Position numbers and translations under genes: made by a program. 64,000 nucleotides of DNA from Capsulimonas corticalis (lineage in GTDB: Bacteria; Armatimonadota; Armatimonadia; Armatimonadales; Capsulimonadaceae): positions 124,001-188,000 of the forward strand of contig NZ_AP025739.1 of NCBI RefSeq assembly GCF_003574315.2. The letters are read 5' to 3'. How positions within the stretch are numbered: position 1 is the first letter of the stretch; the number at the start of each line of letters is the position of its first letter. Under the pieces are notes generated by a model. That model saw only the letters and a list, made by a program, of their open reading frames with translations. It was not told where the DNA came from and made no database searches. Shown piece by piece: positions 821 to 17,730 of this stretch.

Positions 821-1540
821 TCAGAGACCCGGCGGCAGCAGGCCGTAGCCGACGCCGCGTCGGGTTTCCAGCAGCGAGGCGGTAATCGGGGGGAGTTTGG
901 CGCGCAGGCGCCGGATATGGATATCCACGGTGCGCTCGCCGCCGTCGAAGTCCACGCCCCACACCATATCCAGCAGACGGTCGCGGGCGAAGAACTTGCC
1001 GCGATGGGTGCCTAAAAAACGCAGCAGGTCGTATTCGCGCGGAGTCAGGGGCAGGACACGGCCGTCGGGGTCCATCGCGCGGCCGCCGGCCAGGTCCAGC
1101 GTCAGATCGGCCAGCGACAGAGTATCTCCCGACAGGACATGGCGTTTGCGGAACAGCAGCAGATCGATGCGCGACAGCGCTTCGCGCGGGGTATAGGGCG
1201 GCAGGATAAAGTCGTCGACGGCGGCCAGCCAGTCCGGCTGCGCGAGATGCCGGGAGTCCAGCAGCGCGAGGCACGCCGGACGCGGCATGTCGTCGCCCCA
1301 CGCCTGCTGGAGCAGCCGCATGACGTGACGGATTGCGAGACAGTCGTACGTCGTGGAAAGATCGGCGAGGAGAACGTCGGGGGGGCGGCCTTCAAAGGCT
1401 CGGCACAGCGCATCCACGGCGTCGGTGCCACGGTCCATGGAAGAGCGAAAGACAATATGACCTGCTTCGGTGAGCACTTCCGCGATGGGCGTCGAGGGAC
1501 CGCCCAGCTCCATCGGCGCGTAAACCAGGATATTCTGCAT
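821..1540 (-). CDS. GlnR-like orphan regulator with degenerate receiver
   Basis: This 239-aa protein joins a receiver-like domain (1-125) to an OmpR-type winged helix (about 145-238, with LTPREYDLLRFL and RTVDIHIRRLRAKL). The acidic pair at the receiver N-terminus is missing (ILVYAPMEL instead of an EDD run), and the usual K-P is P-P (FILPPY). D60 remains at the phosphoacceptor position. The architecture and the DD-F/V-L-P/D stretch resemble actinobacterial GlnR, the nitrogen regulator that works without ordinary phosphorylation. The ATG at 1540 is chosen because AAGGGA lies about 12 bases upstream; an alternative start lies 17 codons further out. It is downstream of and on the same strand as nirBD. 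I infer, but cannot show, that it binds the GAAACA boxes near 5,010, 8,380 and 15,540. Confidence 0.8.
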   Translation of the reverse strand: MQNILVYAPMELGGPSTPIAEVLTEAGHIVFRSSMDRGTDAVDALCRAFEGRPPDVLLADLSTTYDCLAIRHVMRLLQQAWGDDMPRPACLALLDSRHLAQPDWLAAVDDFILPPYTPREALSRIDLLLFRKRHVLSGDTLSLADLTLDLAGGRAMDPDGRVLPLTPREYDLLRFLGTHRGKFFARDRLLDMVWGVDFDGGERTVDIHIRRLRAKLPPITASLLETRRGVGYGLLPPGL

Positions 1541-1677
1541 GATGCGTGTCGGTTTCCCTTGGAAATCCAACCGCGTCACTGCGGTTCTCACTGGATCGGA
1601 CGTCGGACTCCACGGGGTCGAGGAGATAAAGGATTATAGCATTGCGCGGGCGAGGGCGTCAATGAGAAAGCGAAGAT

Positions 1678-1947: not shown

Positions 1948-1958
1948 CCTAACGCCGC

Positions 1959-2282
1959 CTACCCCACCTCCACCCAAAGATCCCCTTCTTCCGTCACGCG
2001 CACGGGGTACGTCTTCAGGCCGCATTCGCCCATCACCGGGGCGCCGGTGCTGAGGTCGAACTTCCAGGCGTGCAGGGGGCACGCGAGGATGTCGCCGCCG
2101 AGAAGACCGTCGACGAGCGGGCCGGCGCGGTGGGGGCAGAGCGGCTGGGTGGCGTACACGCCGCCGTTGCGGGAGCGGAAGACGGCGACTTTGGTTTCGC
2201 CGATTTGGAATTCACGGCCCTCGCCGATCGGAATCTGGCCCGCCGGGCCAAGACAATATTCGTTGGGAATCAAGGTGCTCAT
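1959..2282 (-). CDS. nirD: Nitrite reductase small subunit (Rieske type)
   Basis: This 107-aa protein is the small subunit of assimilatory NAD(P)H nitrite reductase. It keeps a complete Rieske motif: C49-P-H51 and C68-P-L-H71, which bind a [2Fe-2S] cluster; many NirD proteins have lost these ligands. It lies 15 bases downstream of nirB on the same strand. AGGAAATCTT just before the ATG serves as ribosome binding site. It works with NirB in the cytoplasm in the six-electron reduction of nitrite to ammonium. Confidence 0.93.
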   Translation of the reverse strand: MSTLIPNEYCLGPAGQIPIGEGREFQIGETKVAVFRSRNGGVYATQPLCPHRAGPLVDGLLGGDILACPLHAWKFDLSTGAPVMGECGLKTYPVRVTEEGDLWVEVG

Positions 2283-2297
2283 AAGATTTCCTAAGGA

Positions 2298-4745
2298 TTA
2301 CGCGGTCACCATCGGCAGGGTCGTGACGAATTGGTTGGGCGAAACGGGCTGATCGGCTTCCTTCCAGGGATCGACATAGTCGTCCACGGACTTCTGCATC
2401 GCGGCGTCCAGGCGCTCGGCGATTCCCTCGCTGTCGTTCACCACGATGTCGCGGATCTTATCGATGCCGACACGCGGGACAAAGCCGTAGGTGCGCTCCA
2501 GCCATTTGGCGTTCTCGCGGTAATACTGCATGAAGCGCCCCATGATCAATAAGACTTCCTCGTGACTCTCGCAGACGCAGAGAAGGTCGCCCTTGCGGAC
2601 ATGCGCGCCGGCGGCGCCGCCCACGTAGATCTCCCACTTGCCGCCCTCGACCGCCACCGCGCCCACATCCTTGACCATCGCCTCCGAACAGTTGCGCGGG
2701 CAGCCGGCCGTCGCCAGCTTCATCTTGCCCGGGCTTTCGATGCCGGCGAAGCGCGCCTCAATGGCGATGCCAAGCGCCGTGCTGTCGCCGACGCCGAAGC
2801 GGCACAGCTCCGTGCCGATACAGGTCTTGACCGTGCGGAATGATTTGCCGTAGGCGTGGCCGGAGGGCATCCCCAGATCCTTCCACATCTTCGGCAGGTC
2901 TTCCTTGCGCACACCGACGAGGTCGATGCGCTGGCCGCCGGTGATCTTGACCATCGGGACATTGTACTTGTCGGCGGCGTCGGCGATCTTGCGCAGCTGG
3001 TCGGAGTTCGTCACGCCGCCCCGGATCTGGGGAACGACGGAGAAGGTGCCGTCCTTCTGGATATTGGCGTGCACGCGGTCGTTGATGAACCGGGCGTCGC
3101 GCTGCTCCTCGTAGTCCGCGCCCCAGATCGTGCTCAGCAGCGAGGAGAGGCCCATCTTGCTGCCGACTTCCTCCGCGCCGCCCGCCAGCGCCTCAAAAAT
3201 GGCCGAGACGCTCTTAAGTTCCTGTTCTTTGATCGCCGCGACCAGTTCGGGCTTCGCCAGCGGAACGCCGGGAACATAGTAATGAACGGAGGGATCTTCC
3301 TCGATCTGCCCGTCGCAGACCCACTCGACGACATCCTTGACCAGCGCCTTGCAGGAGCCGCAGCCCATGCCGGCGCGGGTCGATTCCATCACCATTTTGA
3401 GCGAGCGCTTGCCGCTTTCGACGCATTTGCGGATCTGGCCCTTGCTGACGCCGTTGCAGTTACAGACCTGCGTCGCGTCCGGCATCTCCAGCAGAGAAGC
3501 CGTCGCCGGCGGTCCGCCCAGATCGAACAGCAGGGACGTGCGATCTTCAGGCAGGTTCGTCCCATGGTCGAAGTGCTGCATTAATGGCGCGGCCTTGGAG
3601 GCGTCGCCCAGCAGGATGGCGCCGATCAATTGGTCGTCACGCACGATCAGCTTCTTGTAGATCCCCTTCTTCGGCTCGGCGAAGTGCAGGACTTCATCCG
3701 TCGGCAGCGACGGCTCGGTGACGCCCATCGACGCCAGCTCGACGCCCATGACCTTGAGCTTCGTCGCAAGCTTGGATCCGTGGTACTCAGCCCTCGGATT
3801 GGCGCCGGTCAGCACATCGGCCAGCACGCGCCCCTGTTCCCAGAGCGGCGCGACCAGGCCGTACACGCGGCCCCGGTGCTGCGCGCACTCGCCGACCACG
3901 AAGATATCCGGATCGTCCACCGAGCGCATCTGATCGTCGGTCACGATCGCCCGCTCGACGGTCAGGCCGCACTCGCGGCCAATCTCGGAGTTCGGGCGGA
4001 TGCCGGCGGAGATGACGACCATATCGCAGGCCAGCTCCTCGCCGTCCGCGAACGCGAGGCCCGTCACGCTGTCCTCGCCCAAAATCGCCGTGGTGGATTT
4101 TTGCAGATGGACATGAACGCCCATCTTCTCCATCGTATTGCGCAGAATGGCTCCGGCGGGCGCATCCAGCTGATTCTCCATCAGGTGAGCGCCCAGATGG
4201 ACGACATGGACTTCGACGCCGTAGTTGATCAGGCCGCGCGCGGCCTCCAGACCCAGCAGACCGCCGCCGATGACCGCCGCCCGGGCGCACTTGGTGGCGT
4301 AGCCGGCGATCTTATGGCAGTCGTCGATCGTGCGGAAGACATAGACGCCATGCTTCTCGGAGCCATCCTCATTCCGGAGGCCCTTCACCGGAGGCACGAA
4401 GGCGCGGCTGCCGGTCGCGATGATCAGCTTGTCATAGGAAGTGGCGACGCCGTTGGTGTCGATCACGCACTTCGCCGCCCGGTCGATCTCGGCGATGCGA
4501 ACGCCGGCGTGCAGGGAGACATTGTTCTCGTAGTACCACTCCAGAGGATTGAGAAAGATCTCTTTGGCGTCCTGCGAGCCGTTCAAAACATTGGAAAGAA
4601 GAATGCGGTTGTAGTTGCCGTACGGCTCATCGCCGAACATCGCGATCTCGAACTGCTCCGCGCCCCCACGGGCCAGTATGTCCTCAACCGTGCGCGCCCC
4701 GGCCATGCCGTTCCCGATCACAACTAATTTCTGCTTGGTGTTCAT
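2298..4745 (-). CDS. nirB: Assimilatory nitrite reductase large subunit
   Basis: This 815-aa protein reduces nitrite to ammonium using NAD(P)H. Domains run in the usual order: an FAD/NAD-dependent oxidoreductase (about 1-310, starting VVIGNGMAG), a BFD-like [2Fe-2S] domain (CNCNG near 427 and CGSC near 462), a nitrite/sulfite reductase ferredoxin-like half domain, and the siroheme-[4Fe-4S] domain with CIGTELC near 638 and CPRNC near 681. Length is normal for NirB. nirD follows after 15 bases. A long leader of about 240 bases separates the start codon from a promoter with a double GAAACA box (4991-5022), shared with narK and the narB operon. Confidence 0.96.
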   Translation of the reverse strand: MNTKQKLVVIGNGMAGARTVEDILARGGAEQFEIAMFGDEPYGNYNRILLSNVLNGSQDAKEIFLNPLEWYYENNVSLHAGVRIAEIDRAAKCVIDTNGVATSYDKLIIATGSRAFVPPVKGLRNEDGSEKHGVYVFRTIDDCHKIAGYATKCARAAVIGGGLLGLEAARGLINYGVEVHVVHLGAHLMENQLDAPAGAILRNTMEKMGVHVHLQKSTTAILGEDSVTGLAFADGEELACDMVVISAGIRPNSEIGRECGLTVERAIVTDDQMRSVDDPDIFVVGECAQHRGRVYGLVAPLWEQGRVLADVLTGANPRAEYHGSKLATKLKVMGVELASMGVTEPSLPTDEVLHFAEPKKGIYKKLIVRDDQLIGAILLGDASKAAPLMQHFDHGTNLPEDRTSLLFDLGGPPATASLLEMPDATQVCNCNGVSKGQIRKCVESGKRSLKMVMESTRAGMGCGSCKALVKDVVEWVCDGQIEEDPSVHYYVPGVPLAKPELVAAIKEQELKSVSAIFEALAGGAEEVGSKMGLSSLLSTIWGADYEEQRDARFINDRVHANIQKDGTFSVVPQIRGGVTNSDQLRKIADAADKYNVPMVKITGGQRIDLVGVRKEDLPKMWKDLGMPSGHAYGKSFRTVKTCIGTELCRFGVGDSTALGIAIEARFAGIESPGKMKLATAGCPRNCSEAMVKDVGAVAVEGGKWEIYVGGAAGAHVRKGDLLCVCESHEEVLLIMGRFMQYYRENAKWLERTYGFVPRVGIDKIRDIVVNDSEGIAERLDAAMQKSVDDYVDPWKEADQPVSPNQFVTTLPMVTA

Positions 4746-4912
4746 CCTGCGTGCCTTTCGCCTGTCCGGCGCCCGGGCTCAACGCCCAATACCGGGCGGG
4801 AGCGGCTCGAAAATAGTGGCGGCTGTACGAAGGAATAAAGCTCCGGCGGGGAGCGCCTCGTCAGCCAGCGAGTCAGCCGTTCGAATCGATCGGACTGATT
4901 TGCATGAGTGAA

Positions 4913-4926
4913 GGCGACATTGCCGG
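4913..4926. promoter_or_regulatory. Shared leader motif, nirB copy
   Basis: GGCGACATTGCCGG lies about 60-70 bases after the predicted nirB transcription start. It sits inside a 21-base stretch (4910-4930) that matches the narB leader (15436-15456) at 19 positions. It could be an operator or an RNA element. Confidence 0.5.
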
Positions 4927-4990
4927 GAAGTGGGGCTTCAGTGCAGAGTGTTCAAGACCGTCGCAGCACTGCGAACGGCGTCACAGTCAT

Positions 4991-5022
4991 AGTATAGAGC
5001 GTGAATGTTTCGACCATGTTTC
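4991..5022 (-). promoter_or_regulatory. nirBD promoter with double GAAACA box
   Basis: On the minus strand GAAACA (5022-5017), five bases, GAAACA (5011-5006), nine bases, then TATACT (4996-4991). The boxes cover the -35 region, the placement expected for an activator that contacts RNA polymerase. narK and the narB operon have the same arrangement. The rest of the 449-base gap 4746-5194 is the nirB leader plus sequence in which I see no gene. Confidence 0.75.
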
Positions 5023-5194
5023 CATACTAAACGACGAACTTCACTTTGGCGGCATTGATTGCCGGGCGGGATCCCTGAGCTTATGCGCATACATCGGATG
5101 GAAATGTAAGTACAGGGAGCTCAGTATAGCCAGTGAAATCAAGGTCCACAGAAGTCCATGGACCATTCTTAAGATTATCGTGTTCCGATCCACT

Positions 5195-5542
5195 TTAAAT
5201 TTCCACAAGACCCAGATCGACGACAATCACGCCCGCCGTCTCCTCTGGCCCGGCGACAAACACCTCCAGCACGGTTCCTGCCGTCAGGTCCTCAATCACC
5301 GCGAGCGCCACATGCATGTCGCCCTTCGCGCCGATGGGGAACAGGCGCATCGGCTTGCCGTCACGCATGAGGGCCAGATAGACCATGGCGGATGTCGAGT
5401 TTCCGGCGCGCAGATACACCGGCTGGACACGCTTGCCTATCGGGACGGTATAAGTCAGCTCGCTGCTCAGCAGCGTCGGATTCTGATAGCCATGGCCCTG
5501 GAAAGTGTAAACGCCTTGCAGCAGGCGTGGCTGGGAATACAT
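5195..5542 (-). CDS. Small protein of nitrate cluster, paralog 1 (unknown function)
   Basis: This 115-aa protein is predicted to be mostly beta strand, with no membrane segment or signal peptide. It is a paralog of the 146-aa protein at 14927-15367: both share RLLQGVY/FLQGVYPF, YTVP-GK, RAGN-S, the FP-G-K segment followed by H-V-L-V/I-ED, and end in VDLGLVEI. Neither matches a family I can name. The ATG at 5542 is preferred over one 12 codons upstream because AAGGAG sits 8 bases before it. It lies between nirB and narK. Linkage of both paralogs to nitrate genes suggests a role in nitrate assimilation, perhaps as an assembly or sensory partner; this is inference. Confidence 0.75.
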   Translation of the reverse strand: MYSQPRLLQGVYTFQGHGYQNPTLLSSELTYTVPIGKRVQPVYLRAGNSTSAMVYLALMRDGKPMRLFPIGAKGDMHVALAVIEDLTAGTVLEVFVAGPEETAGVIVVDLGLVEI

Positions 5543-5712
5543 GTCGTTTCTCCTTGGTCGATAAAAGAAAGCCTCCATAGTGGAAGCAGGATGGAAGGGA
5601 TGGGCGGCGTCGCCGAGGAGAGAGCCGCGCCTCCGTGGAGAAGCGCATGACCGATCCTATTATGCCCGAGGTTCAGAAAAACCACACGAGTTTTGCATGA
5701 TGAAACTGCGGA

Positions 5713-6387
5713 TTATTGCGTCACGGATCCGCCCTGCGCGGCGGCCTTCCGAATCCACGCGCGTAATGCGGGCGAAGCATACACATATTCCTGAGTCGGC
5801 GCGTCCCCGATAATTCCCTCCCGCGAATAGTAATCGCAAGCGTACTCCGGATAGGTCGTCGGCGCATAAAAATGGGCTCGCGCATAATCAGGACTGGACT
5901 GCAAATTGAACGTCAGCTCCATGTCCGGCGCCTCTTTCGGCTCGTAGGCGTCTCTCAGCGGCGCGGGATTGCGTAATCCGCTCAGGTCGTCGCGATCGGC
6001 GACAGCATACACCATGACTGCGCCGCCATATCGAGAAATGCTCAGGCGGCGACACTCGCCAAGCGCCTTTCGTACTGGAAACGCGTGGCTGTGTGAGGTG
6101 AAAACCCAGATCAGCACGCACAGGGATAAGAGTTCGCACACAGCCGCCGCGCGCGCCGTCTTTCGCGGCCATGACCGAACGATCAGAGGGACGGCGATCA
6201 GAAACGCCGCCGGCAGCACCGGCCAAACGACCAATAACGGCAGAACGAAACCCAGAGATCCCCGCACGTACATCACGCAAAGCTGAAAACCTATCAGCAA
6301 AACGAACGTCGACGCGGCGAGCATGAGCGCATTTTGAGCGCACTCGCCGCGAAGCTCTTCCCGGGTCATAAAGTCTTTGAAATTCAA
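5713..6387 (-). CDS. Hypothetical membrane protein
   Basis: This 224-aa protein has three predicted membrane segments in its first half (about 20-42, 45-72 and 82-100), followed by a soluble part of about 120 residues, probably outside the cytoplasm. I do not recognise the family. The likely start is a TTG at 6387 with AGGA eight bases upstream; an ATG six codons inside is possible. It sits between the small nitrate-linked protein and narK on the same strand, but nothing in the sequence ties it to nitrate metabolism. Confidence 0.6.
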   Translation of the reverse strand: MNFKDFMTREELRGECAQNALMLAASTFVLLIGFQLCVMYVRGSLGFVLPLLVVWPVLPAAFLIAVPLIVRSWPRKTARAAAVCELLSLCVLIWVFTSHSHAFPVRKALGECRRLSISRYGGAVMVYAVADRDDLSGLRNPAPLRDAYEPKEAPDMELTFNLQSSPDYARAHFYAPTTYPEYACDYYSREGIIGDAPTQEYVYASPALRAWIRKAAAQGGSVTQ

Positions 6388-6480
6388 GAATGCGTCCTGG
6401 CTGATGTGATGCTGATGTCCGTCGTAACAATCAGGCGGACATCAACATAACGCGTACGCATCCATTTCGTTTCGCGCCGC

Positions 6481-8127
6481 TTATGCGACTTCGGCGCCCG
6501 CCAGGACGCGCTCTTGGGCCGGAGCGGAAGCCGCGGCGGGAGCGCCGTGAGCGACGCCGCCAGCGCCGAGCCAGCTTTTGGTCCAGCCGGGAGCGACGGA
6601 GCGCAGGACGACGAAGGCGACCACGGCGATGGCGGCGAAGGCGTAGAAGCCCGAGGCGTAGGTGCCGGTGATGTCATGCAGGTGGCCGAGGGCGAAGTTC
6701 AGGTAGTAGCCGCCGACGCCGCCCGCCGCGCCGACCAGGCCGGTCATGACGCCGATCTCTTTCTTGAAGCGCTGCGGGACGAGCTGGAAGACCGAGCCGT
6801 TGCCCATGCCGAGCGCCGCCATCATCACGAAGAGCAGAACCTCCGCCACCGGGAAGGTATTGATCGCCAGGCCCACGCCGATCGCCATCAAGATCACGGT
6901 CGCATAGAGGACCGTGAGCATCCGGACGCCGCCCAGGCGGTCCGCCAGCGCGCCGCCGATGGGGCGGACGAGGGAGCCGGCCATGATGAACGGAGCGGTC
7001 CAGAGACCGACCGTCGCCTTCGGCGCGTCGTACTGATCGACGAAGAACGTGTTGAAGAAGCTGGACATTCCGACAAAACCGCCGAACGTCACAAAGTACA
7101 GCATGCAGAAGTACCAGGCGTCGGGCTTCGCCAGAACCGCCGCGTAATCGGCGGCGCGGGCCGGGCGGACCTGGCTCGGGGGATCCTTGGCGAGCACGGC
7201 GAAGGTCACGAGCACGATGCCGACGGGGATCATCAGCAGACCGAAGACTTCATGCCAGCCATACGCTTTGGCGAGCATCGGCGCGAACAGCGTGGCGAGA
7301 ACCGTGCCGGAGTTTCCAGCGCCGGCGATGCCCATCGCAAGGCCCTGAAGGTGAGGCGGATACCAGCGCGAAGCCAGCGGCAGCGCGACGGCGAACGATG
7401 CGCCCGCCAGTCCCAGGAAGAACGCGACAAACACGAGTGAGTTGTACGAGGTCGCCATCTGAAAACCGACGATCAGCGGCAGCAGCGTGAAGAACATCGA
7501 CGCGACGCCGACGCGCTTGGAACCGAACCGGTCCGCGAGCACGCCGAGCAGAATACGCCAGAAGCCCGCCGCGAGCAGCGGGATGCCCACCAGCAGCAGC
7601 TTGGTGGAGGCCGGATAACCGTTCGCGATCGGCTGGAACGTCTTGCCGGCCTTCGCCAGCGCGGCGGCGGGCTTGAGCGCGATCACGTTCTCATTCGGAT
7701 TGCCGTGCGCGCCGGGAGCAAGATCGATGTGGATCAGCTTGGACTGCGCGTTCGCGGCGGCGATGGTCGCCGGATTGGCGTTGTCCAGCACGAACTTCTC
7801 GACGGGCTTGACGCTCGCCTTGGTGGCGATGCTCGGATCGCCGGGCTTGATCAGCAGGTTGTAAACGTTCTTGGGCTGGTCGGCTTTGAGCTTGGGGTTC
7901 TGCTTGACGGTCTGCGGTCCCTTGATCAGCATCGTATACTGCTCGCCGGTCTGGACCTGGGCGGTGGGCGTGATGCGCAGGTTCTGGCCGGTGAGGGACG
8001 GGTCGGTCATGATGAAGGGCATAAGCGCCCCCAGGATGACCCAGACCATAAAAGAAATGTCGAAGTGCAGGAAGGCGCTAAAGAGCGACGGGGCGTGCCC
8101 GCTTTGTTTCAGATCGCTTAATTTCAC
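6481..8127 (-). CDS. narK: NarK/NasA-type nitrate transporter with large periplasmic insertion
   Basis: This 548-aa major facilitator protein should move nitrate/nitrite across the inner membrane. The N-terminus (MKLSDLKQSGH, then FLHFDISFMVWV) and the loop GVLADRFGSKR are typical of the nitrate/nitrite porter family. Family members are usually about 400-470 residues. Here about 130 extra residues (43-173) lie between the first and second membrane segments, on the periplasmic side, rich in K, P and A. The start is GTG, with AGGAG eight bases upstream. It has its own promoter with a double GAAACA box and a leader of about 220 bases. Confidence 0.92.
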   Translation of the reverse strand: MKLSDLKQSGHAPSLFSAFLHFDISFMVWVILGALMPFIMTDPSLTGQNLRITPTAQVQTGEQYTMLIKGPQTVKQNPKLKADQPKNVYNLLIKPGDPSIATKASVKPVEKFVLDNANPATIAAANAQSKLIHIDLAPGAHGNPNENVIALKPAAALAKAGKTFQPIANGYPASTKLLLVGIPLLAAGFWRILLGVLADRFGSKRVGVASMFFTLLPLIVGFQMATSYNSLVFVAFFLGLAGASFAVALPLASRWYPPHLQGLAMGIAGAGNSGTVLATLFAPMLAKAYGWHEVFGLLMIPVGIVLVTFAVLAKDPPSQVRPARAADYAAVLAKPDAWYFCMLYFVTFGGFVGMSSFFNTFFVDQYDAPKATVGLWTAPFIMAGSLVRPIGGALADRLGGVRMLTVLYATVILMAIGVGLAINTFPVAEVLLFVMMAALGMGNGSVFQLVPQRFKKEIGVMTGLVGAAGGVGGYYLNFALGHLHDITGTYASGFYAFAAIAVVAFVVLRSVAPGWTKSWLGAGGVAHGAPAAASAPAQERVLAGAEVA

Positions 8128-8323
8128 GAAGTCTTCTCCTCTCGCGAATGGTCTTGAGGCTTATGGCCGAGAGCGCAATCGAGGGTTCGCGGGAAGAAGA
8201 ACTTCCGGCGCTCCGCCAGCAACTCAAAAATGGGAATCGAGGAGCCTGTGTCCTCAATTGGTATCTTAAGTGTTGGCAACGGCGCCGTAGGAGTGCGTCA
8301 AATCTGACGGGGAATTGGACAGC

Positions 8324-8337
8324 GGCGACAGTGTCGC
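8324..8337. promoter_or_regulatory. Shared leader motif, narK copy
   Basis: GGCGACAGTGTCGC contains a perfect 13-base palindrome (GCGACA-g-TGTCGC) and corresponds to the GGCGACAnTGCCGG motif in the nirB and narB leaders. It lies about 12-25 bases after the predicted narK transcription start. Confidence 0.45.
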
Positions 8338-8355
8338 TGTTTGTTTCGTGAGTGT

Positions 8356-8387
8356 AGTATAGAAGAGTGATGTTTCAGGAATGTTTC
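8356..8387 (-). promoter_or_regulatory. narK promoter with double GAAACA box
   Basis: On the minus strand GAAACA (8387-8382), five bases, GAAACA (8376-8371), nine bases, TATACT (8361-8356), the same layout as at nirBD. A third GAAACA (8347-8342) sits at the predicted transcription start. The remaining part of the 381-base gap 8128-8508 is the narK leader and the hairpins at 8430-8500. Confidence 0.75.
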
Positions 8388-8429
8388 GGGGGAGAAAGTA
8401 TTTTTGGGGAAAGGAAAAACAGATCAGAG

Positions 8430-8500
8430 GCCCTCCCCCCTGCCTCGCCTCCCAAAACTGGGAGGCGGGGTGGATGGGTAAAGACATCCCGGATGTCTTG
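8430..8500. repeat. Two hairpins after a secreted-protein gene
   Basis: CCTCGCCTCCCA and TGGGAGGCGGGG form a stem around AAAC near 8440-8470, and AAGACATCC/GGATGTCTT follows at 8480-8498. They lie just past the stop of the 714-aa gene and upstream of the narK promoter, and may end transcription from the former. Confidence 0.5.
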
Positions 8501-8508
8501 CGCAGCCT

Positions 8509-10653
8509 CTATTCTTGTGCGACCCAGGCGGTCAGCGCGCCATTAGCGTAGACGCCCGTGACCGTGACGCTCGTCAACCCGCTTTCGTCCAGGCCGCCGA
8601 TCCAGTTGCCAATATTCACGCCGTACGAGTTCAGAAACTCAGTGTTGGCGTCCGTGACGATGTGGACTGAGGCTCCGCTGGGCGTGAAGCCGACAAACGA
8701 TGTGATCGGCGTCATGTCGAACGTGGTTGTCCCGAGGGTGTCCGCATTGAAACCGCCAGTCGCCTGAGCGTAGGGCGCGACTACGAAGGGAAGGGAAGAC
8801 GTCGCCCCAACTCCCGGAGCCGAGTTGACGACTTCGATCTGGCTGCTCGCGGCGGTCCCAAGGTCGGCCGCCGGAATAACGGCGGTAATCGACGTGGGAC
8901 TCACATACGTCGTCGCCAGAGGAGCCCCATTGAACTGCACGACCGACGCGCTGCTGAAGCCGCCGCCGATGCAATCGACGGTCACATCGGAGGTCGAGAT
9001 AAACGAGCGAAACGGAGACAGCGCCGTTAAGGTGGGCGCGTATGCGCCCAGGGTCGTCGTGTGCGCCGCCTCGGTGTTACCCGCCAGATCGACGCTCCAA
9101 TAACTGAGTGTATGCACGACATTCGAGACAGCAAACGGCGTGGAATAGACGGCGGGAGCCCCGCCGTCGAGACTGTAGTAAATAGTGGGCAGATCGCCCT
9201 TATCGTCCGCCGCCTTCAGTGTCACGACGCCGGCTCCGAACGCCTCGGTCGTTTTAGGAGTCGTGGTGTCGATATTGATCGTGTTCTGAGAGACCTGTGT
9301 CAGCTGTCCGGACGCCCCGTCTCGAGCGCTATACTGCACGACATGCGACCCATCGCTGCTGATGGCGACCTGCGCGTAACCGCCGCTGACCGTGACGGAG
9401 GCGCTCGCGCCGATCTTGTATTGCAGCGTCGAGCCGGGCGACGTATACGGCGACATGAGGCTCAGCGTGACCTTCGAGGAGTTCCAGCCGCGCCCGTTCG
9501 GCGCCGGCGTTTCGCTCGCGCTGACGACCGTTTTTCCGGGAAGCGACCATTCGACCGGCGTAACGGATCCGGTAAACGAGGCTCCGGTGTAAGCGGCGCC
9601 GATGATATTCCCGTACTTATCAACCGTCACCGCCTTCGACGACAGGTATCCGGGCGGCAGGAACGGATGCAGATCGACAAAGGACGCGGCCGTTCCGGAC
9701 CAAACACCGGCGTGCTGAGCCCCCGCCGATACGGCGGCGTACCCGACCTGATACCCGCTCCCCGCGCCAATCGCCTCGGAAAAGGAGTAGCCGGACGGAC
9801 CTAAGTCGGTCAGGGTGTCCGCCGTTCCATGCCACAGCACGGCGTCCGTTGTGTAGCCGATAAATCCGACCTCCTGCACCGGCGTCTCCAGAAATCCGAC
9901 CTCGGTGTTATGAGCCTGGTCGACGCCAAGCGCGAGGGTGGACTGACCGGTGTTCATCGTCGGCGGCTGCAAATCGACAAAGCTCGCGGCCGTTCCTTTC
10001 CAGAGAGCGGCGTGGGTGACGAGGCCCGACGTTCCATAGCCGACCTCGATTCCATGATCCACCGCGGTCGCGACGCCGTCATACCAGACGGAGGGCAGCA
10101 GATCGACCGCGCTCGCCGCAGTCCCTTTCCACAAAATCGGATGGTCGTAACCGCTGGAATCGGTGGCGTAGCCAACTTCCTGCCCCTGTGAAATGGCGGT
10201 CCCCCAGCTCTGGGCCGCCGCGCTTGTTCCGTTGAGAAGATGCAGGGTGAGTGAGGTGGGATGCAGATCGACGAAGTTCTTATCCGAGCCGCTCCATAAG
10301 ATGGCGTGCACCGTGTAGAAAGTGCGCCAGCCGAACCTCTTGGAATAGTAGGTGTACTTGGCCTCGTTATACGAGCCCATTTGATTGGCGCCGTAGATTC
10401 CGGCGACTGTTGAGCCGAAGTACGCCGGCGGATCGAGGCTGATGATCGGGCCGCCGGGATTCCCCATGACAGCCGAAGTCGTTCCGCCGACCAGTTGTCC
10501 CTGATAACCCTGCGGGACTGTCAGCGGGGCGCCCGCGCCGTTGAGTAGCGACACAGTGTAAGCCTGCGCGTCGGCGCAATGGCTTGCAAATCCAACAAAA
10601 AGGACAGAGGCGGCGCTGACGGCCGCGGACGTTGCGAAATGCAGTCGGCTCAT
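8509..10653 (-). CDS. Secreted WxGTA-repeat protein with IPT/TIG domain
   Basis: This 714-aa protein starts with a signal peptide (about 1-30, ending ADAQA). The first half holds at least five copies of a motif reading LWxGTAxSxVDLxP, typical of secreted HAF-like repeat proteins. Residues of about 400-500 look like an OmpL47/chitobiase-type beta domain (INIDTTTPKT), and about 560-650 looks like an IPT/TIG immunoglobulin-like fold (LTALSPF start, GGGFSSASVVQFNG). AAGGA lies nine bases before the ATG. A surface or extracellular role is likely; substrate and partners are unknown. It interrupts the nitrate cluster. Confidence 0.8.
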   Translation of the reverse strand: MSRLHFATSAAVSAASVLFVGFASHCADAQAYTVSLLNGAGAPLTVPQGYQGQLVGGTTSAVMGNPGGPIISLDPPAYFGSTVAGIYGANQMGSYNEAKYTYYSKRFGWRTFYTVHAILWSGSDKNFVDLHPTSLTLHLLNGTSAAAQSWGTAISQGQEVGYATDSSGYDHPILWKGTAASAVDLLPSVWYDGVATAVDHGIEVGYGTSGLVTHAALWKGTAASFVDLQPPTMNTGQSTLALGVDQAHNTEVGFLETPVQEVGFIGYTTDAVLWHGTADTLTDLGPSGYSFSEAIGAGSGYQVGYAAVSAGAQHAGVWSGTAASFVDLHPFLPPGYLSSKAVTVDKYGNIIGAAYTGASFTGSVTPVEWSLPGKTVVSASETPAPNGRGWNSSKVTLSLMSPYTSPGSTLQYKIGASASVTVSGGYAQVAISSDGSHVVQYSARDGASGQLTQVSQNTINIDTTTPKTTEAFGAGVVTLKAADDKGDLPTIYYSLDGGAPAVYSTPFAVSNVVHTLSYWSVDLAGNTEAAHTTTLGAYAPTLTALSPFRSFISTSDVTVDCIGGGFSSASVVQFNGAPLATTYVSPTSITAVIPAADLGTAASSQIEVVNSAPGVGATSSLPFVVAPYAQATGGFNADTLGTTTFDMTPITSFVGFTPSGASVHIVTDANTEFLNSYGVNIGNWIGGLDESGLTSVTVTGVYANGALTAWVAQE

Positions 10654-10679
10654 GTGGGATGTCCTTTCGTGAGTCCAAT

Positions 10680-10860
10680 TCAGCAGTTGATCCTGCTGTC
10701 AGGCCGAAAGAAGTCGTCGCGGATCAGCGTCTCGTCCAGCGCGAGATGTCCATGATCCGCCGTCTCGTAACGATGCCGCTTGGCCGATTTCCCTTTGATC
10801 AGACCGTTCATCCGCTCGACCAAGCCATTCGTCGAACGCCTGCTCGTGTTAGCCCATGGT
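10680..10860 (-). pseudogene. Transposase C-terminal remnant (DDE integrase core)
   Basis: About 60 minus-strand codons ending at TGA 10682-10680 encode STNGLVERMNGLIKGK followed by AKRHRYETADH. This matches the last part of an rve-type integrase core, where the Glu of N-G-x-V-E-R is the third catalytic acid, as in IS481/IS3-like transposases. The frame is closed upstream and no terminal repeats are seen, so this is a decayed fragment. Confidence 0.6.
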
Positions 10861-10981
10861 TAACTTTCTGAGTATGGTTCCCCAGAAGACTACCTCATGG
10901 CGCCTCAAAACGCTAGTCCCACTTGTTGATAAATGACATGAGATTCGACGATTACTCCCAATTCTCGCTCCGAACGGCAGA

Positions 10982-11011
10982 GCAGGCGGAATGGACATCC
11001 ATTCCGCCTGC
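10982..11011 (-). terminator. Hairpin after the SLH porin gene
   Basis: GCAGGCGGAATG and CATTCCGCCTGC form a 12-base-pair stem around GACATC, 20 bases after the porin stop. No U tract follows, so termination is likely but not certain. Nothing else is seen between here and the transposase remnant. Confidence 0.55.
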
Positions 11012-11031
11012 CGGGCCGCGTGACATCCGCC

Positions 11032-12693
11032 CTAGAACTTGACCTGAAGTTCGCTCACGAACAGACCGACCTTTTCGGGGTTGACGGAGCTGGGGGCGTG
11101 GGCGACTTTGCTGGGCTTGGTGTACCACAAGCGCAGCCGTGTGGCTTTGTCGAGGCCGTACAGCGCGCCGAAGCCGAGGTTCTGGTCCGTGTACGAGCTG
11201 TCACTGCCCGCGCCGCTCTTTGCCCGGTTGAACTCATCGTAGTTGACCGCGAAGGTCAGCGGGTGCGCGCCGGCGGGGCTGAAGGTATAACCGCCGAGCG
11301 CGTAGTAACCTTCGACCTTGTTGCCCGGAGCGTAGACGTTGGACGACAGCGCCAGCGTGGATTGATTGAGCAGGCTGCCGGCCGGGTTGGCGAAGTAGGT
11401 CCGCTGCTCGAACTTTCCGGCCACATACTCGCCGTTCACGAAGATATTCGCGGTCGGGTTGTACTGGACGTCCGCGCCCGTCAGCTCTTTCTTGCGCGAT
11501 TGGTAGGCGGGGCCGACATCGCTGTAGTCCGGCACATGGCCGTTGTAGTAGGAAACGCCAATGCCCAGCTTTTTGTCGCCGGTCTGGTACGCCGCGCGAT
11601 AGACCTGATCGACCTGGCGGTCGGTGTCGTTGCTGACCTGCCCGGTTCCGTTGATCAGCGCCGCCGTCAGGCGCAGGCTGGCGGAGCCGCCGGTCACCTG
11701 AACGCCGCGATCGTAATCCTGTCCGGAGAAGAGGCCCTGGCCGCCTTCGTTGAAAGCGAGCGGGCGCTCGGCCTGGATGTGGTTCGCGGTGGAGAGCGGC
11801 AGGATGTAGCCGAAGGGAGTGGAGAACATACCGGCGGTGATTCCGATGTTCTTCAGCGGGTCGCCGTTGCCGAAGGTATAGTTGACATAACCTTCACGGA
11901 CGCTGACCGCGGAGTTGTTCGCCGAGTTGCTGTTGGATGGGGTAGCGGTCGGATTGGCGAATCCCGAAGCGTCGAGCTGAATGGCGTAGCGCGTGTTCTG
12001 CGTCAGCTGTCCGGTGAACTTGAGGCGCGAGCGGCGGATCACAAAGGATCCACCGTTAGATCCCGAGGCGTAATCGCCGTTGTAAGAGTTGCCGGGCGCT
12101 TTGCCATACGGGAACTTCAGATGATCGGCGCTCGTCTGGTTGTGCTCGTCGGCCGCGAAGTATCGCGCCTGGATGTAGCCGCTGATCTGGAACTTGCGCT
12201 TCGCGCCGACGCCGTACGAATTATTCGCGGTGTCCTGCGCTTTGTTTGCAAGGTCCTTGGTGTCCAGCACATCCTGACGCAAATCCTCAACCTGGCCGCG
12301 CAGCGTCGTGATATCGGCCTGCGCTTTGGTCACATCGGACTGGATCGCGGTCAGCTCGGTCTTGAAGCTGTCGACCAGAACTTGAATCTTGTTCAGATCG
12401 TCCTGCGTGACGGCGGGCGTTTGCGGCGCGCCGCTCTTGATGTCCGCAATTGTTTGAAGCAGACGGTCAACCACCGTGGCGAACTCGTAACGCGTCAGCG
12501 CCCGATTGCCCAAAAACTGGCCGTTGGGATATCCCTTCACGAGTCCTTTGTCGGCCAGGCTCTGAACCGCCGTATAGGCCCAGTGGTTTTCCGGAACGTC
12601 CGGAAACGCCGCAGCCTGGGCCTGCGCGGGCCGTACGCCCGCCGCCAATGTTCCGCCGAGCGCCAATGCGGAAATCCCGATCAGCGTATGCAT
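11032..12693 (-). CDS. SLH-domain outer-membrane porin
   Basis: This 553-aa protein has a signal peptide (ending AQAQA) and one S-layer homology domain (about 33-85: FPDVPENHWAY, then GLVKGYPNG and ALTRYEFA). A coiled coil (about 95-155) and a long beta-rich barrel ending in a C-terminal aromatic (VKF) follow. This is the SLH-coiled coil-porin design of cyanobacteria, Deinococcus and related phyla, where the SLH domain anchors the porin to cell-wall polymer. The start is the ATG at 12693, behind GAAGGACG. It lies between narK and narB, so nitrate entry across the outer membrane is a reasonable guess. No GAAACA box is present upstream. Confidence 0.88.
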   Translation of the reverse strand: MHTLIGISALALGGTLAAGVRPAQAQAAAFPDVPENHWAYTAVQSLADKGLVKGYPNGQFLGNRALTRYEFATVVDRLLQTIADIKSGAPQTPAVTQDDLNKIQVLVDSFKTELTAIQSDVTKAQADITTLRGQVEDLRQDVLDTKDLANKAQDTANNSYGVGAKRKFQISGYIQARYFAADEHNQTSADHLKFPYGKAPGNSYNGDYASGSNGGSFVIRRSRLKFTGQLTQNTRYAIQLDASGFANPTATPSNSNSANNSAVSVREGYVNYTFGNGDPLKNIGITAGMFSTPFGYILPLSTANHIQAERPLAFNEGGQGLFSGQDYDRGVQVTGGSASLRLTAALINGTGQVSNDTDRQVDQVYRAAYQTGDKKLGIGVSYYNGHVPDYSDVGPAYQSRKKELTGADVQYNPTANIFVNGEYVAGKFEQRTYFANPAGSLLNQSTLALSSNVYAPGNKVEGYYALGGYTFSPAGAHPLTFAVNYDEFNRAKSGAGSDSSYTDQNLGFGALYGLDKATRLRLWYTKPSKVAHAPSSVNPEKVGLFVSELQVKF

Positions 12694-12850
12694 CGTCCTT
12701 CTTTGCAAATTCTCATCCCCTTTTTTGAATATGCGACGTTCATATCGTCGTCTTGAGTATCGGTCCGCCGGCGACCAAATCCATGCTGGCTTCCCTTGCC
12801 AGACAATTTACCAGTTAGCCACTAGTATAACATGACTATTCCATAAAACC

Positions 12851-14923
12851 TCACAATTTTGCAATTTGCACGGCGCAAATCTTGAATTCCGGCATGCGCG
12901 ATGTTGGGTCGAGCGCCGGATTGGTGAGCAGGTTCGCGCGTCCCTTCCCCGCCCAGTGGAACGGGACGAAGATGGTGTCCTGCCGGATCGAAGTCGTCAG
13001 CCTGGCTTTGGCCTCCGCCGCGCCGCGCCGTGTGGCGAGACGCACCATATCCCCGTCGGCGATCCCGAAGCGGCGGGCCAGCGAGGGGTGGATCTCGACA
13101 AAGGCTTCCGGGGCGTTCGCGCGCAGCTTTTCCACCCGGCGCGTTTGCGTTCCCGATTGGTACTGCGCCATGACGCGTCCCGTCGTCAGGTAGAGTGGAT
13201 ACTCGTCATCGGGCGCTTCGGCGACCTCCCGATGCGCCACGGGGTGAAACTTCGCGCGGCCGTCCTCGGTGGCGAACTTGTCCAGAAACATTCGCGGCGT
13301 TCCGGGATGGTCTTCGGAGGGACAGGGCCAGAAGACACCGTTTTGGGCGGCGATTCGTTCGTACGTAACGCCGGCGTAGTCCGCAGCGCCGCCGGCGCTG
13401 GCCCGGCGCAGCTCCTCAAAGATCTCGCGCGGCCGCTCGGTGAAGTACTGCCCGGCGCCCAGCCGGTCGGCGAGCGCCTTCAAAATCTGAGCGTCGCTGC
13501 GCACCCCTTCCGGCGGCTCCGACGCGCGGCGGCGCAGCAGCACCCGCCCTTCAAGGTTGGTCATCGTCCCTTCTTCTTCGGCCCACTGCGTTACGGGCAG
13601 CACGACATCCGCGCGAGCCGCCGTTTCGGACAGAAAGATATCGGAGACAAGCAGGAAATCGAGCGCATCCAGCCGCTCTTCGATATGACTGGCGCGCGGC
13701 GCGGAGACCACGACATTGGAGGCGGCCACCATCAGCGCGCGGACACCGCCAGGCGTTCCGAGCGTATCGAGCAGTTCATACGCCGAGCGTCCCGGTCCGG
13801 GGATCGTGGCTTCGTCCACGCCCCAGACGCCGGCGATATACGCCCGGTGCGCGGGATTGTCGATCTTACGGTATCCCGGAAGCTGGTCGGCCTTTTGCCC
13901 ATGCTCGCGCCCGCCCTGCCCATTGCCCTGCCCCGTCAGACATCCATAGCCGCAGTGCGGTTTGCCGGCCTTGCCGAGCGCGAGGGCGAGGTTGATAAAC
14001 GCCTGGACATTCTCGACGCCCTTGCTTTGCTGCTCGGCGCCGCGCGCCGTCAGCACCATCGCCGTCGCCGCCTCGCCCATCAGGTGCGCCGCCTTCGTCA
14101 GATCCTTCACCGGGACGCCGGTGATGCGCTCGACCCGGTCCGGCCAGTAGGAGGCAACCGTGCGCCGTACGGCGTCAAATCCGGTCGTGCGCGCTTCGAT
14201 GAAATCGTGATCGAGCAGGCCGTCCGCCATCGCAATATGCAGCAGGCCGTTGGCGAGCGCGCCGTCCGTTCCCGGCGTCAATTGCAGAAACACGGCGGCG
14301 TTCTGCGCGGTCGGCGTGCGGCGCGGGTCGGCGACAATCAAATTCCCGCCCCGGCTCCGATGCTCCTCGAAGTACTGCATGATCGGCGGCATCGTCTCGG
14401 CGGGATTGCTTCCGATGAGAAGGATCGTCTCCGCGCCGGGGATGTCTTCGAGCGGGAACGGCAGGCCGCGGTCGATCCCAAACGCCTTGATGCCCGCCGC
14501 CGCCGCCGAGGACATACAGAAGCGCCCATTGTAATCGATGTTGGGCGTCCGCAGGGCGACGCGGGCGAACTTGCCCAGCATATACGCCTTTTCGTTGGTG
14601 AGGCCGCCGCCGCCGAAGATGCCGATGGAGTCGAGACCATACTTCTGCTGCGCCAGCCGAATCTCCGTCACGATCCGGTCCAGCGCCTCGTCCCACTCGC
14701 ACGGCCGCAGCTCCCCGCCCTTACGATCGCGGATCCAGGGCGATGTCAGCCGGTCCGGATGCGCGATCAGGTCCGCGCTGGTCCAGCCCTTCTGGCAAAG
14801 CCCGCCCTTGTTCGTCGGAAAGTCCGGCCGGGCGGCGACGGTGATCAAATCGCCTTCCGAAACCAGGTTCATTCCGCATTGCAGAGCGCAGTAAGGACAG
14901 TGCGTGGCGGTGGCGGACGACAT
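12851..14923 (-). CDS. narB: Assimilatory nitrate reductase, molybdopterin catalytic subunit
   Basis: This 690-aa cytoplasmic enzyme should reduce nitrate to nitrite. The N-terminus has the [4Fe-4S] ligands C9, C12, C16 and C43 (HCPYCALQC, GGLCQKG) of the bis-MGD oxidoreductase family. The molybdopterin oxidoreductase core follows (SAAAAGIKAFG, LLIGSNPAET), then the dinucleotide-binding domain (YPLYLTTGRV to the end). It lacks the extra C-terminal Fe-S domain and signal peptide of other types, which fits the NarB/NasA assimilatory class. It starts four bases after the stop of the small protein upstream (14927), so the two form one operon. Confidence 0.93.
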   Translation of the reverse strand: MSSATATHCPYCALQCGMNLVSEGDLITVAARPDFPTNKGGLCQKGWTSADLIAHPDRLTSPWIRDRKGGELRPCEWDEALDRIVTEIRLAQQKYGLDSIGIFGGGGLTNEKAYMLGKFARVALRTPNIDYNGRFCMSSAAAAGIKAFGIDRGLPFPLEDIPGAETILLIGSNPAETMPPIMQYFEEHRSRGGNLIVADPRRTPTAQNAAVFLQLTPGTDGALANGLLHIAMADGLLDHDFIEARTTGFDAVRRTVASYWPDRVERITGVPVKDLTKAAHLMGEAATAMVLTARGAEQQSKGVENVQAFINLALALGKAGKPHCGYGCLTGQGNGQGGREHGQKADQLPGYRKIDNPAHRAYIAGVWGVDEATIPGPGRSAYELLDTLGTPGGVRALMVAASNVVVSAPRASHIEERLDALDFLLVSDIFLSETAARADVVLPVTQWAEEEGTMTNLEGRVLLRRRASEPPEGVRSDAQILKALADRLGAGQYFTERPREIFEELRRASAGGAADYAGVTYERIAAQNGVFWPCPSEDHPGTPRMFLDKFATEDGRAKFHPVAHREVAEAPDDEYPLYLTTGRVMAQYQSGTQTRRVEKLRANAPEAFVEIHPSLARRFGIADGDMVRLATRRGAAEAKARLTTSIRQDTIFVPFHWAGKGRANLLTNPALDPTSRMPEFKICAVQIAKL

Positions 14924-14926
14924 AAT

Positions 14927-15367
14927 TTAAGCTTGCTCCTCGGCGTCGATCTCGACCAGGCCGACGTCCAGCACCACCGTGCCGGTCAGTCCGCGCGGGG
15001 CGGCGAGGCACACTTCGATGCGTGTTCCGGCCGGATGATCCTCGACAATAGCGAGCGGCACATGGTTATCGGATTTGGGGCCGACCGGAAAGTAGCGAAC
15101 GGGCGACCCATTCGTCGAAATGGCGAGATAAAGAATATCATCCGACAGATTGCCCGCCCGGAAGTACTGAACCTGCGCGACCTTGCCTTTGGGCACGGTA
15201 TAACTGAGCGCTTCGTTCAGCGGCGCGAGATCAAAGACCCCGCGTCCGGCGAAAGGGTACACGCCCTGCAAAAAACGCGGCGTAGCGCGCTTAGTGCGCA
15301 GCAGCTGCTGAAGCCGGGTTTCGCTGATCACGACCGGCGTTTCGTATTGCGACAGGATGGAGCTCAT
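14927..15367 (-). CDS. Small protein of nitrate cluster, paralog 2 (unknown function)
   Basis: This 146-aa protein is the first gene of the narB operon, directly upstream of the nitrate reductase. It is a paralog of the 115-aa protein at 5195-5542, with about 30 extra N-terminal residues and a few more at the C-terminus (EIDAEEQA). The shared core contains FLQGVYPF, SYTVPKGK, FRAGN, FPVGPKSDNHVPLAIVED and VVLDVGLVEI. It has no membrane segment, cofactor motif or metal cluster. Position suggests a chaperone, assembly factor or regulatory partner for nitrate reductase, but no family function is known to me. Confidence 0.8.
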   Translation of the reverse strand: MSSILSQYETPVVISETRLQQLLRTKRATPRFLQGVYPFAGRGVFDLAPLNEALSYTVPKGKVAQVQYFRAGNLSDDILYLAISTNGSPVRYFPVGPKSDNHVPLAIVEDHPAGTRIEVCLAAPRGLTGTVVLDVGLVEIDAEEQA

Positions 15368-15438
15368 GAGTAGACAGACACCTTTCCATTGGTACCGAAT
15401 GATACCGCCTCTGGGCGGATTTCACAAGCGATTGGGAA

Positions 15439-15452
15439 GGCGACACTGCCGG
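15439..15452. promoter_or_regulatory. Shared leader motif, narB operon copy
   Basis: GGCGACACTGCCGG lies 81 bases from the proximal GAAACA box. The corresponding distance at nirB is 80 bases. It is part of the 21-base match 15436-15456. Confidence 0.5.
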
Positions 15453-15517
15453 GGAAACGTGGGAGAGTAACGAACGGAGCATTCACGGCGTCCTCGCCGC
15501 TTGCTCCTTCCGCTATA

Positions 15518-15549
15518 ACGATACCGCCCGCGTGTTTCAGAACTGTTTC
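15518..15549 (-). promoter_or_regulatory. narB-operon promoter with double GAAACA box
   Basis: On the minus strand GAAACA (15549-15544), five bases, GAAACA (15538-15533), nine bases, then TATCGT (15523-15518) as -10. This is the third copy of the arrangement. The predicted leader is about 145 bases long. Confidence 0.72.
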
Positions 15550-15580
15550 GGAGGAAAAAGTTTTTCAACGGACAGACGGG

Positions 15581-15840
15581 GGCAAACCCACCCCCCGGCC
15601 TTCGGGCGCTCTCTCCGGGGCAAACCCACCCCGGCCCTTCGGGCCACCCCTCCCGCCGACGGGAAGGGTTATTTCAGAGTGTGTTATCGCAGGCAGCTTC
15701 TATAAGAGGCAATCTTACCAACCCTTCCCGTCGGCGGGAGGGGTGGCCCGAAGGGCCGGGGTGGGTTTGCAAGGGAGGGGGCGGCCGAAGGCCGGGGTGG
15801 GTTTGCAAGGTGTCGACCGAAGCCCCGGGGTGGGTTTGCC
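15581..15840. repeat. Long perfect inverted repeat (class A, copy 1) with flanking half repeats
   Basis: Arms 15620-15670 and 15720-15770 are exact reverse complements over 51 bases around a 49-base loop. Partial copies of the outer arm (GCAAACCCACCCC and its complement) extend it to 15581 and 15840. The loop (15671-15719) recurs in opposite orientation in copy 2 near 45,286. It fills most of the gap between the narB promoter and mobA; no gene is seen in it. Confidence 0.9.
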
Positions 15841-15895
15841 GGGAGTAGGTCGCCCGTAGGCGCAGGAGAAACGCTTTGCAGATCGTACACATTTC

Positions 15896-15916
15896 GAAAC
15901 ATTCCCCGGGTACCCT
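15896..15916 (+). promoter_or_regulatory. Possible mobA promoter with a single GAAACA
   Basis: GAAACA (15896-15901), nine bases, then TACCCT (15911-15916) repeats the box-to--10 spacing of the nitrate promoters, but with one half site only. The ATG of mobA is seven bases after the -10 and has no Shine-Dalgarno sequence, so the transcript may be leaderless. Confidence 0.35.
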
Positions 15917-15923
15917 ATCCTCC

Positions 15924-16511
15924 ATGGAAAACATCGCCATCGCAATCCTCGCCGGCGGCCGGAGCCGCCGGATGGGGCGGGATAAGGCGGCGCTGCCGTG
16001 GGACGGCGCGACGCTGCTGGAGCGACTCGCCGGGGCGGCGGTCTGCGTGGGAGTTCCCGTACTGGTTGTCGGCCGGCAGCAGCCGGAAGACTGGGGCGGC
16101 CCCGCGGTGACGTTTTTGCCGGATCGGTATCCCGATTTGGGGCCGATGGGCGGCGTGCTGACCGCGCTGGAGTCGGGGAGCAACTCGATCCTCGCCGTCG
16201 CGTGCGACATGCCGTATTTGGATGCGCGCGCCTTGGAGTGGCTGCTCGGCGCCGCGCGCGACCTGCCCACAGGGGCGCCGGGACTTGCGGGACGCAATGG
16301 GGATCAGATCGAGCCGCTGTTCGCGGTCTATCGGCAAGACCTCAAAGAAGCGATGGCCGCGCGCATCGCCGCCGGACGCCTTTCGATGAATGGGCTGATC
16401 GCGGACAGTTCGTTCGTGGTCGCCGACGTACCGGCGGAGATCCGGGCGGCGCTGGTCAATATCAACACTCCCGAGGAGTGGCGTGATTTGGATAGGAAAG
16501 ACAAATTATGA
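15924..16511 (+). CDS. mobA: Molybdenum cofactor guanylyltransferase
   Basis: This 195-aa protein joins GMP to molybdopterin to make the MGD cofactor required by NarB. The nucleotide-binding signature LAGGRSRRMGRDKA sits at the N-terminus, and DMPYLD, which holds the metal-binding Asp, follows in the middle. The ATG at 15924 gives the expected N-terminus; an upstream TTG would add 16 residues. It is divergent from the narB operon, and its stop overlaps the next gene by four bases (ATGA). Confidence 0.92.
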   Translation: MENIAIAILAGGRSRRMGRDKAALPWDGATLLERLAGAAVCVGVPVLVVGRQQPEDWGGPAVTFLPDRYPDLGPMGGVLTALESGSNSILAVACDMPYLDARALEWLLGAARDLPTGAPGLAGRNGDQIEPLFAVYRQDLKEAMAARIAAGRLSMNGLIADSSFVVADVPAEIRAALVNINTPEEWRDLDRKDKL

Positions 16512-16891
16512 AACTACGCATACGCGGCAATTCCGTTCGCCTGCGGCTGGACCGGCGGGAGATCGCCGCGCTGGGGCTGGGCGATACGGTCGAGGAGCGC
16601 ACGGAGTTCGGCCCCAGCCCGGAACACACGCTTCGCTGCACGGTCGTCGCGCGGGAACAGGACACGCCGCTGGCGGCGGCGTTCACGCAAAATCAGATTG
16701 CAATCTTTATTCGGCAGGAAGACGCCGCGACGCTCGTGAATACTGAGACGGTCGGCGTGGAAGCCGCGCAGGAAATCGGGGATGGACGCTCGCTGCGCCT
16801 GCTGCTGGAGAAGGATTTCGCCTGTCTTCAGGATCGGGTCGGCGAGGACGACACCCACAGCTTCGACAACCCGTCGGCTTGCTCACCCTAA
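16508..16891 (+). CDS. Small conserved protein coupled to mobA
   Basis: This 127-aa protein starts MKLRIRGNSVRLRL, which resembles a small conserved family of unknown function (I believe DUF7009) found in several bacterial phyla. It has no membrane segment. Its ATG overlaps the mobA stop (ATGA), so it is co-translated with the cofactor enzyme. The C-terminus is acidic and has a cysteine at residue 105 and near the end. A role in molybdenum cofactor use is suggested only by this coupling. Confidence 0.75.
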   Translation: MKLRIRGNSVRLRLDRREIAALGLGDTVEERTEFGPSPEHTLRCTVVAREQDTPLAAAFTQNQIAIFIRQEDAATLVNTETVGVEAAQEIGDGRSLRLLLEKDFACLQDRVGEDDTHSFDNPSACSP

Positions 16892-16933
16892 ATCGACTCC
16901 CATCTCAGCAAGCCCATGGAAGGACAAAGACGG

Positions 16934-17719: not shown

Positions 17720-17730
17720 GGAACGTTCGG

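Follow-up and report, generated by a model that had tools for sequence, protein, structure and literature searches.

GlnR is the nitrogen master switch of actinobacteria such as Streptomyces and Mycobacterium, and is usually described from actinomycetes. Proteins of the OmpR/PhoB type activate transcription in the class-II manner, with boxes that lie one helical turn apart and replace the -35 element. The boxes of actinobacterial GlnR read gTnAc-n6-GaAAc, with the variants GAAAC-n6-GTATC and t/gTAAC-n6-Gc/aAAC (PMC10704036), and several of them are found at actinobacterial amtB (PMC5826061). NnaR, a co-activator of nitrate assimilation in actinobacteria, combines a HemD domain with an OmpR-type DNA-binding domain (PMC11162112). 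When the literature was searched for this regulator in Armatimonadota or Chloroflexi, nothing relevant stood among the results listed.

We analysed 64,000 nucleotides of the genome of Capsulimonas corticalis, a soil bacterium of the Armatimonadota (the whole stretch is called the window below). The following genes of the window are considered here:
1959..2282, minus strand: nirD, Rieske-type small subunit of nitrite reductase (PF00355)
2298..4745, minus strand: nirB, large subunit of nitrite reductase (TIGR02374, over the cut-off)
5195..5578, minus strand: small jelly-roll-like protein A, homologous to 14927-15367
6481..8127, minus strand: narK, nitrate/nitrite MFS transporter (TIGR00886, E 9e-74, below the curated cut-off)
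11032..12708, minus strand: SLH-domain porin downstream of narB (PF00395, PF07396), which also follows narB in G001
12851..14923, minus strand: narB-type assimilatory nitrate reductase (NF047855, the NasC model, E 4e-259, below the curated cut-off)
14927..15367, minus strand: small jelly-roll-like protein B (smallB), first gene of the narB operon

Protein A is probably the end of the narK transcription unit, and the porin possibly belongs to the same operon as narB. NarK has a long insertion before residue 173, at which its MFS match starts; the NarK of another Armatimonadota genome, G025, is about 120 amino acids shorter. Proteins A and B, for which no Pfam or NCBIfam match was found, are related to each other and are kept with narK and narB across the group (46-71% identity, same promoter), and AlphaFold models the small protein as a beta jelly roll (pLDDT 88.7), for which the fold matches, TNF/C1q-like, are weak. 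They are possibly a new accessory protein of nitrate assimilation.

A common promoter arrangement precedes three transcription units of the window:
4991..5022, minus strand: promoter of nirBD(-regulator), GAAACA-N5-GAAACA-N9-TATACT, predicted transcription start at about 4984
8356..8387, minus strand: promoter of narK, GAAACA-N5-GAAACA-N9-TATACT, predicted transcription start at about 8349
15518..15549, minus strand: promoter of small protein-narB(-porin), GAAACA-N5-GAAACA-N9-TATCGT, predicted transcription start at about 15511

Read along the minus strand, the sites are GAAACA TGGTC GAAACA TTCACGCTC TATACT (nirBD, 5022-4991), GAAACA TTCCT GAAACA TCACTCTTC TATACT (narK, 8387-8356) and GAAACA GTTCT GAAACA CGCGGGCGG TATCGT (narB unit, 15549-15518). 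All three had been pointed out in an earlier reading of the sequence alone (the sequence-only reading), and all three proved exact. A search of the window for GAAACAN5GAAAC with at most one mismatch returned only these nitrate-gene sites, 0.53 being expected. No -35 element fits at any of them, the best candidate sharing 2 of 6 bases with TTGACA. The proposal that the three units share a regulon promoter whose activator overlaps the -35 region is supported. The long leaders contained no RNA family in an Rfam scan of window positions 1-20000. The same reading had noted a weaker site at mobA:
15896..15916, plus strand: candidate single-box site upstream of mobA, GAAACA-N9-TACCCT, weak and not conserved

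This site is present, one of 4 single-box matches in the window versus 0.06 expected, but a second box is absent and conservation does not support the site: it was not found upstream of mobA in G002 and G006, the two relatives whose sequence covers the whole region.

We then searched the Capsulimonas genome (G000), one contig of 7,645,051 bp. In these 7.65 Mb, GAAAC-N6-GAAAC-N10-TANNNT has 3 perfect matches, which are the three nitrate-gene sites of the window; the reversed control pattern, at zero mismatches, has 0 in the whole genome. The genome scan proposed in the sequence-only reading thus gave exactly three perfect matches, all at nitrate genes, rather than many sites at unrelated genes. 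A one-mismatch copy at 4963324-4963293 (GAAACATGTCCGCAACATTTCTCCGCTATACT) lies upstream of a further gene:
G000:C1 4961535-4963148 (L086:3534-5147), minus strand: second nirB-like gene (nirB2), 537 aa

NirB2 matches NirB residues 1-506 only and is without the siroheme reductase part. None of the other one-mismatch matches, where inspected, was at a nitrogen gene. Perfect box pairs regardless of the -10 number six in the genome: the three window sites, one upstream of amtB, and one each in loci L016 and L018. We rejected the last two as likely chance, the L016 pair overlapping a gene start and the L018 pair being directed away from the start of the neighbouring gene. The amtB pair (L017/L087), where a P-II gene follows amtB, has its -10 elsewhere than at N10, and a TTGACG/TACACT promoter stands just downstream. 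No good site was found upstream of the three glnA-type genes of Capsulimonas, or at 3 of its 4 P-II genes.

To see how far the arrangement extends, the same pattern was searched in 251 Armatimonadota genomes, where it occurs 88 times in 60 genomes (87 distinct sites). The reversed control gave 20 matches in 17 genomes, and shifting the -10 by one base gave 15 (N9) and 22 (N11). Sites were assigned by tblastn of the downstream DNA to a gene beginning within 500 bp, against a reference set of our own choosing (nitrate genes, amtB and glnA). By this measure 52 of the 87 distinct sites, in 18 families, precede nitrogen genes (glnA 18, amtB 17, smallB-narB 8, nirB 6, narK 3); the remaining 35 may hold other targets. 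Nitrogen genes lay downstream of 0/20 reversed, 0/15 N9 and 1/22 N11 control matches. The sixth base of the boxes, which was left free in the search, is A in 43 of the 52 nitrogen-gene sites for one box and in 47 of 52 for the other, so GAAACA was recovered independently. The regulon extends beyond nitrate, as glnA and amtB are the genes most often found downstream in the phylum as a whole.

The sites of the window are themselves kept in relatives. The nirB site recurs, its spacings exactly kept, upstream of nirB in G001, G002 and G006, the narK site upstream of narK in G001 (L126), and the narB-unit site upstream of smallB-narB in G001, G002, G004, G006, G017, G128 and G227; in the first five of these, boxes and both spacings are kept and the spacer letters have changed. 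At amtB the pair is often part of a longer array. Of 17 promoters, 8, 7, 7 and 4 have an extra half-site [GT][ATC]nAC at exactly 11, 22, 33 and 44 bp, respectively, ahead of the pair, versus at most 2 of 17 at any other offset, and the arrays mix gTnAC, TTAAC and GAAAC half-sites, up to six of them at 11-bp steps (as in L143 and L138). The pattern also stands upstream of an ATP-grasp-like gene, a probable PEP carboxylase and a probable inorganic pyrophosphatase (L093 and L125 in G007 and G010; L122-L124), the names being given by reading the sequences; these sites are conserved between two sister species and could be further targets or chance.

A candidate for the protein that acts at these sites adjoins nirBD:
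821..1540, minus strand: orphan regulator of OmpR/PhoB type (239 aa, encoded at 824-1540), assigned to the GlnR family and proposed as the activator

It is the sole member of its family, at the profile cut-off, in the Capsulimonas genome, and is 97% identical in G001, the nearest genome, of the same genus. Pfam matched Trans_reg_C only, and no canonical receiver (Response_reg) was found by Pfam in the protein. Its top three PDB sequence matches are GlnR structures (8hig, 8hih and 8hml, 2.9e-26 to 3.4e-22), from Saccharopolyspora erythraea and M. tuberculosis, followed by PrrA at 4e-20. The recognition helix of GlnR (RTVDVHVRRLRAKL) and that of the window protein (GGERTVDIHIRRLRAKL) differ by two V-to-I changes, and across the family this helix reads RTVDVH(I/V)(R/T)R(I/L)R(A/S)K. 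In the receiver alignment neither the acidic pair nor the KPF lysine is present, and D60 is at least 90% kept; R52 of GlnR, the Arg two residues past the receiver Asp in A. mediterranei, is not kept, the window protein having D60-L61-S62. Taken on its sequence, the protein is marked as a divergent member of the GlnR family and is not filed here as a strict GlnR orthologue. Its AlphaFold model (mean pLDDT 89.9) has a receiver and a winged helix; PhoP-DNA and GlnR 8hih are among its full-length matches, and its DNA-binding domain can be superposed on that of the GlnR-DNA and PhoB-DNA (1gxp) structures. In a tree whose deep order is unsettled and whose bootstrap had not converged, the ordinary regulators RR1 (a response regulator of the window, described below), L046, PrrA and MtrA form a separate group (100/99) together with one Anaerolineales protein, and GlnR and the Armatimonadota regulators lie outside this group.

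The regulator follows the sites through the phylum. At a cut-off of E at most 1e-50 the family is present in 73 of the 251 genomes: in 37 of the 40 with nitrogen-gene sites versus 36 of the 211 others (Fisher p 1.8e-20, from a hand-tallied 2x2 table that counts genomes, related ones included). Relatedness is addressed only by the spread over 18 families and by the contrast within family f14 (about 59 genomes by hand count), where G128 and G227 are the sole genomes with the regulator and likewise the sole ones with nitrogen-gene sites. At the cut-off no regulator was found in the site-bearing genomes G111, G214 and G216, all 74-88% complete, and the strict site is absent in G025 although the regulator stands inside its nitrate operon (narK-nirB-nirD-regulator-smallB-narB). 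Elsewhere the order is nirBD-regulator (Capsulimonas, G002 and G006), or glnA lies beside the regulator (L057, L058, L059, L068, L070 and L072), with the order regulator-site-glnA in G094 and G089. We find this regulator, by sequence kinship and distribution, the most likely activator of the sites.

Another OmpR-type protein, in the first place the two-component response regulator RR1 (113-814, plus strand), might act instead, and this is improbable. RR1 adjoins the nir genes in Capsulimonas and G001, and OmpR/PhoB proteins generally bind 11-bp direct repeats. However, in G002 and G006, where the sites persist, it is the 824-1540 family and not RR1 that stands beside nirB; the recognition helix of RR1 differs from that of GlnR; and the phylum-wide co-occurrence is with the 824-1540 family, the one that the survey covered.

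Less probable still is a nitrate-specific activator of the NnaR kind in place of GlnR. The order nirBD-regulator does resemble mycobacterial narK3-nirBD-nnaR (PMC11162112), and in Capsulimonas and its relatives the regulator gene is part of the nir/nar cluster. Yet the window regulator has no HemD match, its model being a receiver with a winged helix, as in full-length response regulators including GlnR, and elsewhere the family adjoins glnA and the sites precede amtB and glnA, which is the territory of GlnR. We rejected the identity with NnaR on the absence of the HemD-fused domain by both Pfam and the model.

The -35 elements of ECF sigma factors may read GGAAC or GAAAC, and GAAAC could accordingly be the -35 of such an alternative sigma factor; we give this very little credence. 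The boxes are paired at 11 bp and form arrays that reach six half-sites with an 11-bp step, and the -10 is of the housekeeping TANNNT kind, 10 bp and 21 bp from the two GAAACs, as against the roughly 16-17 bp that are usual for ECF promoters. That the sites arose by chance or are inherited and functionless is a negligible prospect, as the sequence-only reading had also held for chance agreement: some near-relative sites are shared by descent and the 35 of 87 phylum sites without a listed nitrogen gene are near the 15-22 per control pattern, but the 52 nitrogen-gene sites in 18 families keep boxes and spacing exact with differing spacer letters, and the near absence of nitrogen genes downstream of the controls excludes chance in practice.

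From sequence comparison, the sites appear to define a nitrogen regulon of GlnR type that lies outside Actinobacteria and has a fixed, class-II-like promoter geometry. It is very probable that they are GlnR-type operator-promoters, at which the orphan regulator on GAAACA pairs recruits polymerase to a nitrogen-limitation regulon; binding, activation and signal we infer. Two monomers of the 824-1540 (minus strand) protein would bind head-to-tail and replace the missing -35. Their two half-sites, anchored on the -10, fall at about -38 to -33 and -27 to -22, a separation of 11 bp or one helical turn. Once bound, the regulator would bring the housekeeping RNA polymerase to the -10, TANNNT, nine bases further on, in the manner of PhoB and GlnR, and nitrogen limitation would turn on nirBD, narK and the small protein-narB unit. 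Further targets are probably amtB-glnK and the shortened second nirB in Capsulimonas, and glnA in relatives. Since its gene sits within the unit that it would control in several relatives, the regulator may there amplify its own expression.

Of the best 80 loci in GTDB genomes outside Armatimonadota, the majority are actinobacterial. Identity to solved GlnR is 57-88% among those sampled, with one MAG at 48-51%. Loose patterns showed regulator-GTAACn6GTAAC-N10-TAGCCT-amtB in a HRbin24 genome, filed among Chloroflexota, and TTAACn6GCAAC-N10-TATGGT at glnA beside a GlnR-like gene in an actinobacterial MAG; as sequence matches these are suggestive only of the same promoter geometry outside the phylum. 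GlnR-like regulators were also seen in Candidatus Omnitrophota (L219, L256), Latescibacterota (L198) and Myxococcota (L214, L264), with glnA adjoining the regulator in L256 and amtB in the same locus in L219; the strict box was not found within these five loci. We lean towards GlnR-type control being older than, and extending beyond, Actinobacteria, with a family bearing the GlnR helix and the arrangement half-site-n6-half-site-N10-TANNNT across Armatimonadota, reaching at least one HRbin24/Chloroflexota-like genome, and with the regulator tied to nitrate genes in the Capsulimonas lineage.

A sequence-defined nitrogen regulon offers a handle on the nitrogen physiology of a phylum with almost no known regulation. 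It also supplies a promoter code that can be searched for in genomes and a test of the age of GlnR control. Since the -10 stands at one fixed distance, the geometry of activation can be tested as well.

Among the known systems, NnaR shares with the Capsulimonas regulator the OmpR-type DNA-binding domain and a gene adjoining nirBD, but has HemD in place of the receiver, and no HemD was found in the Capsulimonas protein. PhoB and the pho box share the winged helix on 11-bp direct repeats that replace the -35, together with the fold match to 1gxp; the half-site sequence, the receiver without phosphorylation residues and the nitrogen rather than phosphate genes set the present system apart. It differs from GlnR in its phylum, in boxes that are mostly GAAACA-GAAACA, in a -10 at one fixed distance, in a Capsulimonas glnA without a good site, in the R52 that the window protein has not kept, and in an Armatimonadota regulator gene placed beside or inside nir/nar units or beside glnA. 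The GlnR-type features suggested in the sequence-only reading, an 11-bp repeat and a GAAAC half-site, are borne out by boxes, targets and regulator kinship. As with GlnR of Streptomyces, Mycobacterium and Amycolatopsis, the regulator is an orphan of OmpR type with an atypical receiver and a near-identical recognition helix, the half-sites are 11-bp direct repeats of the gTnAc/GaAAc type with multiple boxes at amtB, and the targets, here by site position across the phylum, are nirB, narK, nitrate reductase, amtB-glnK and glnA.
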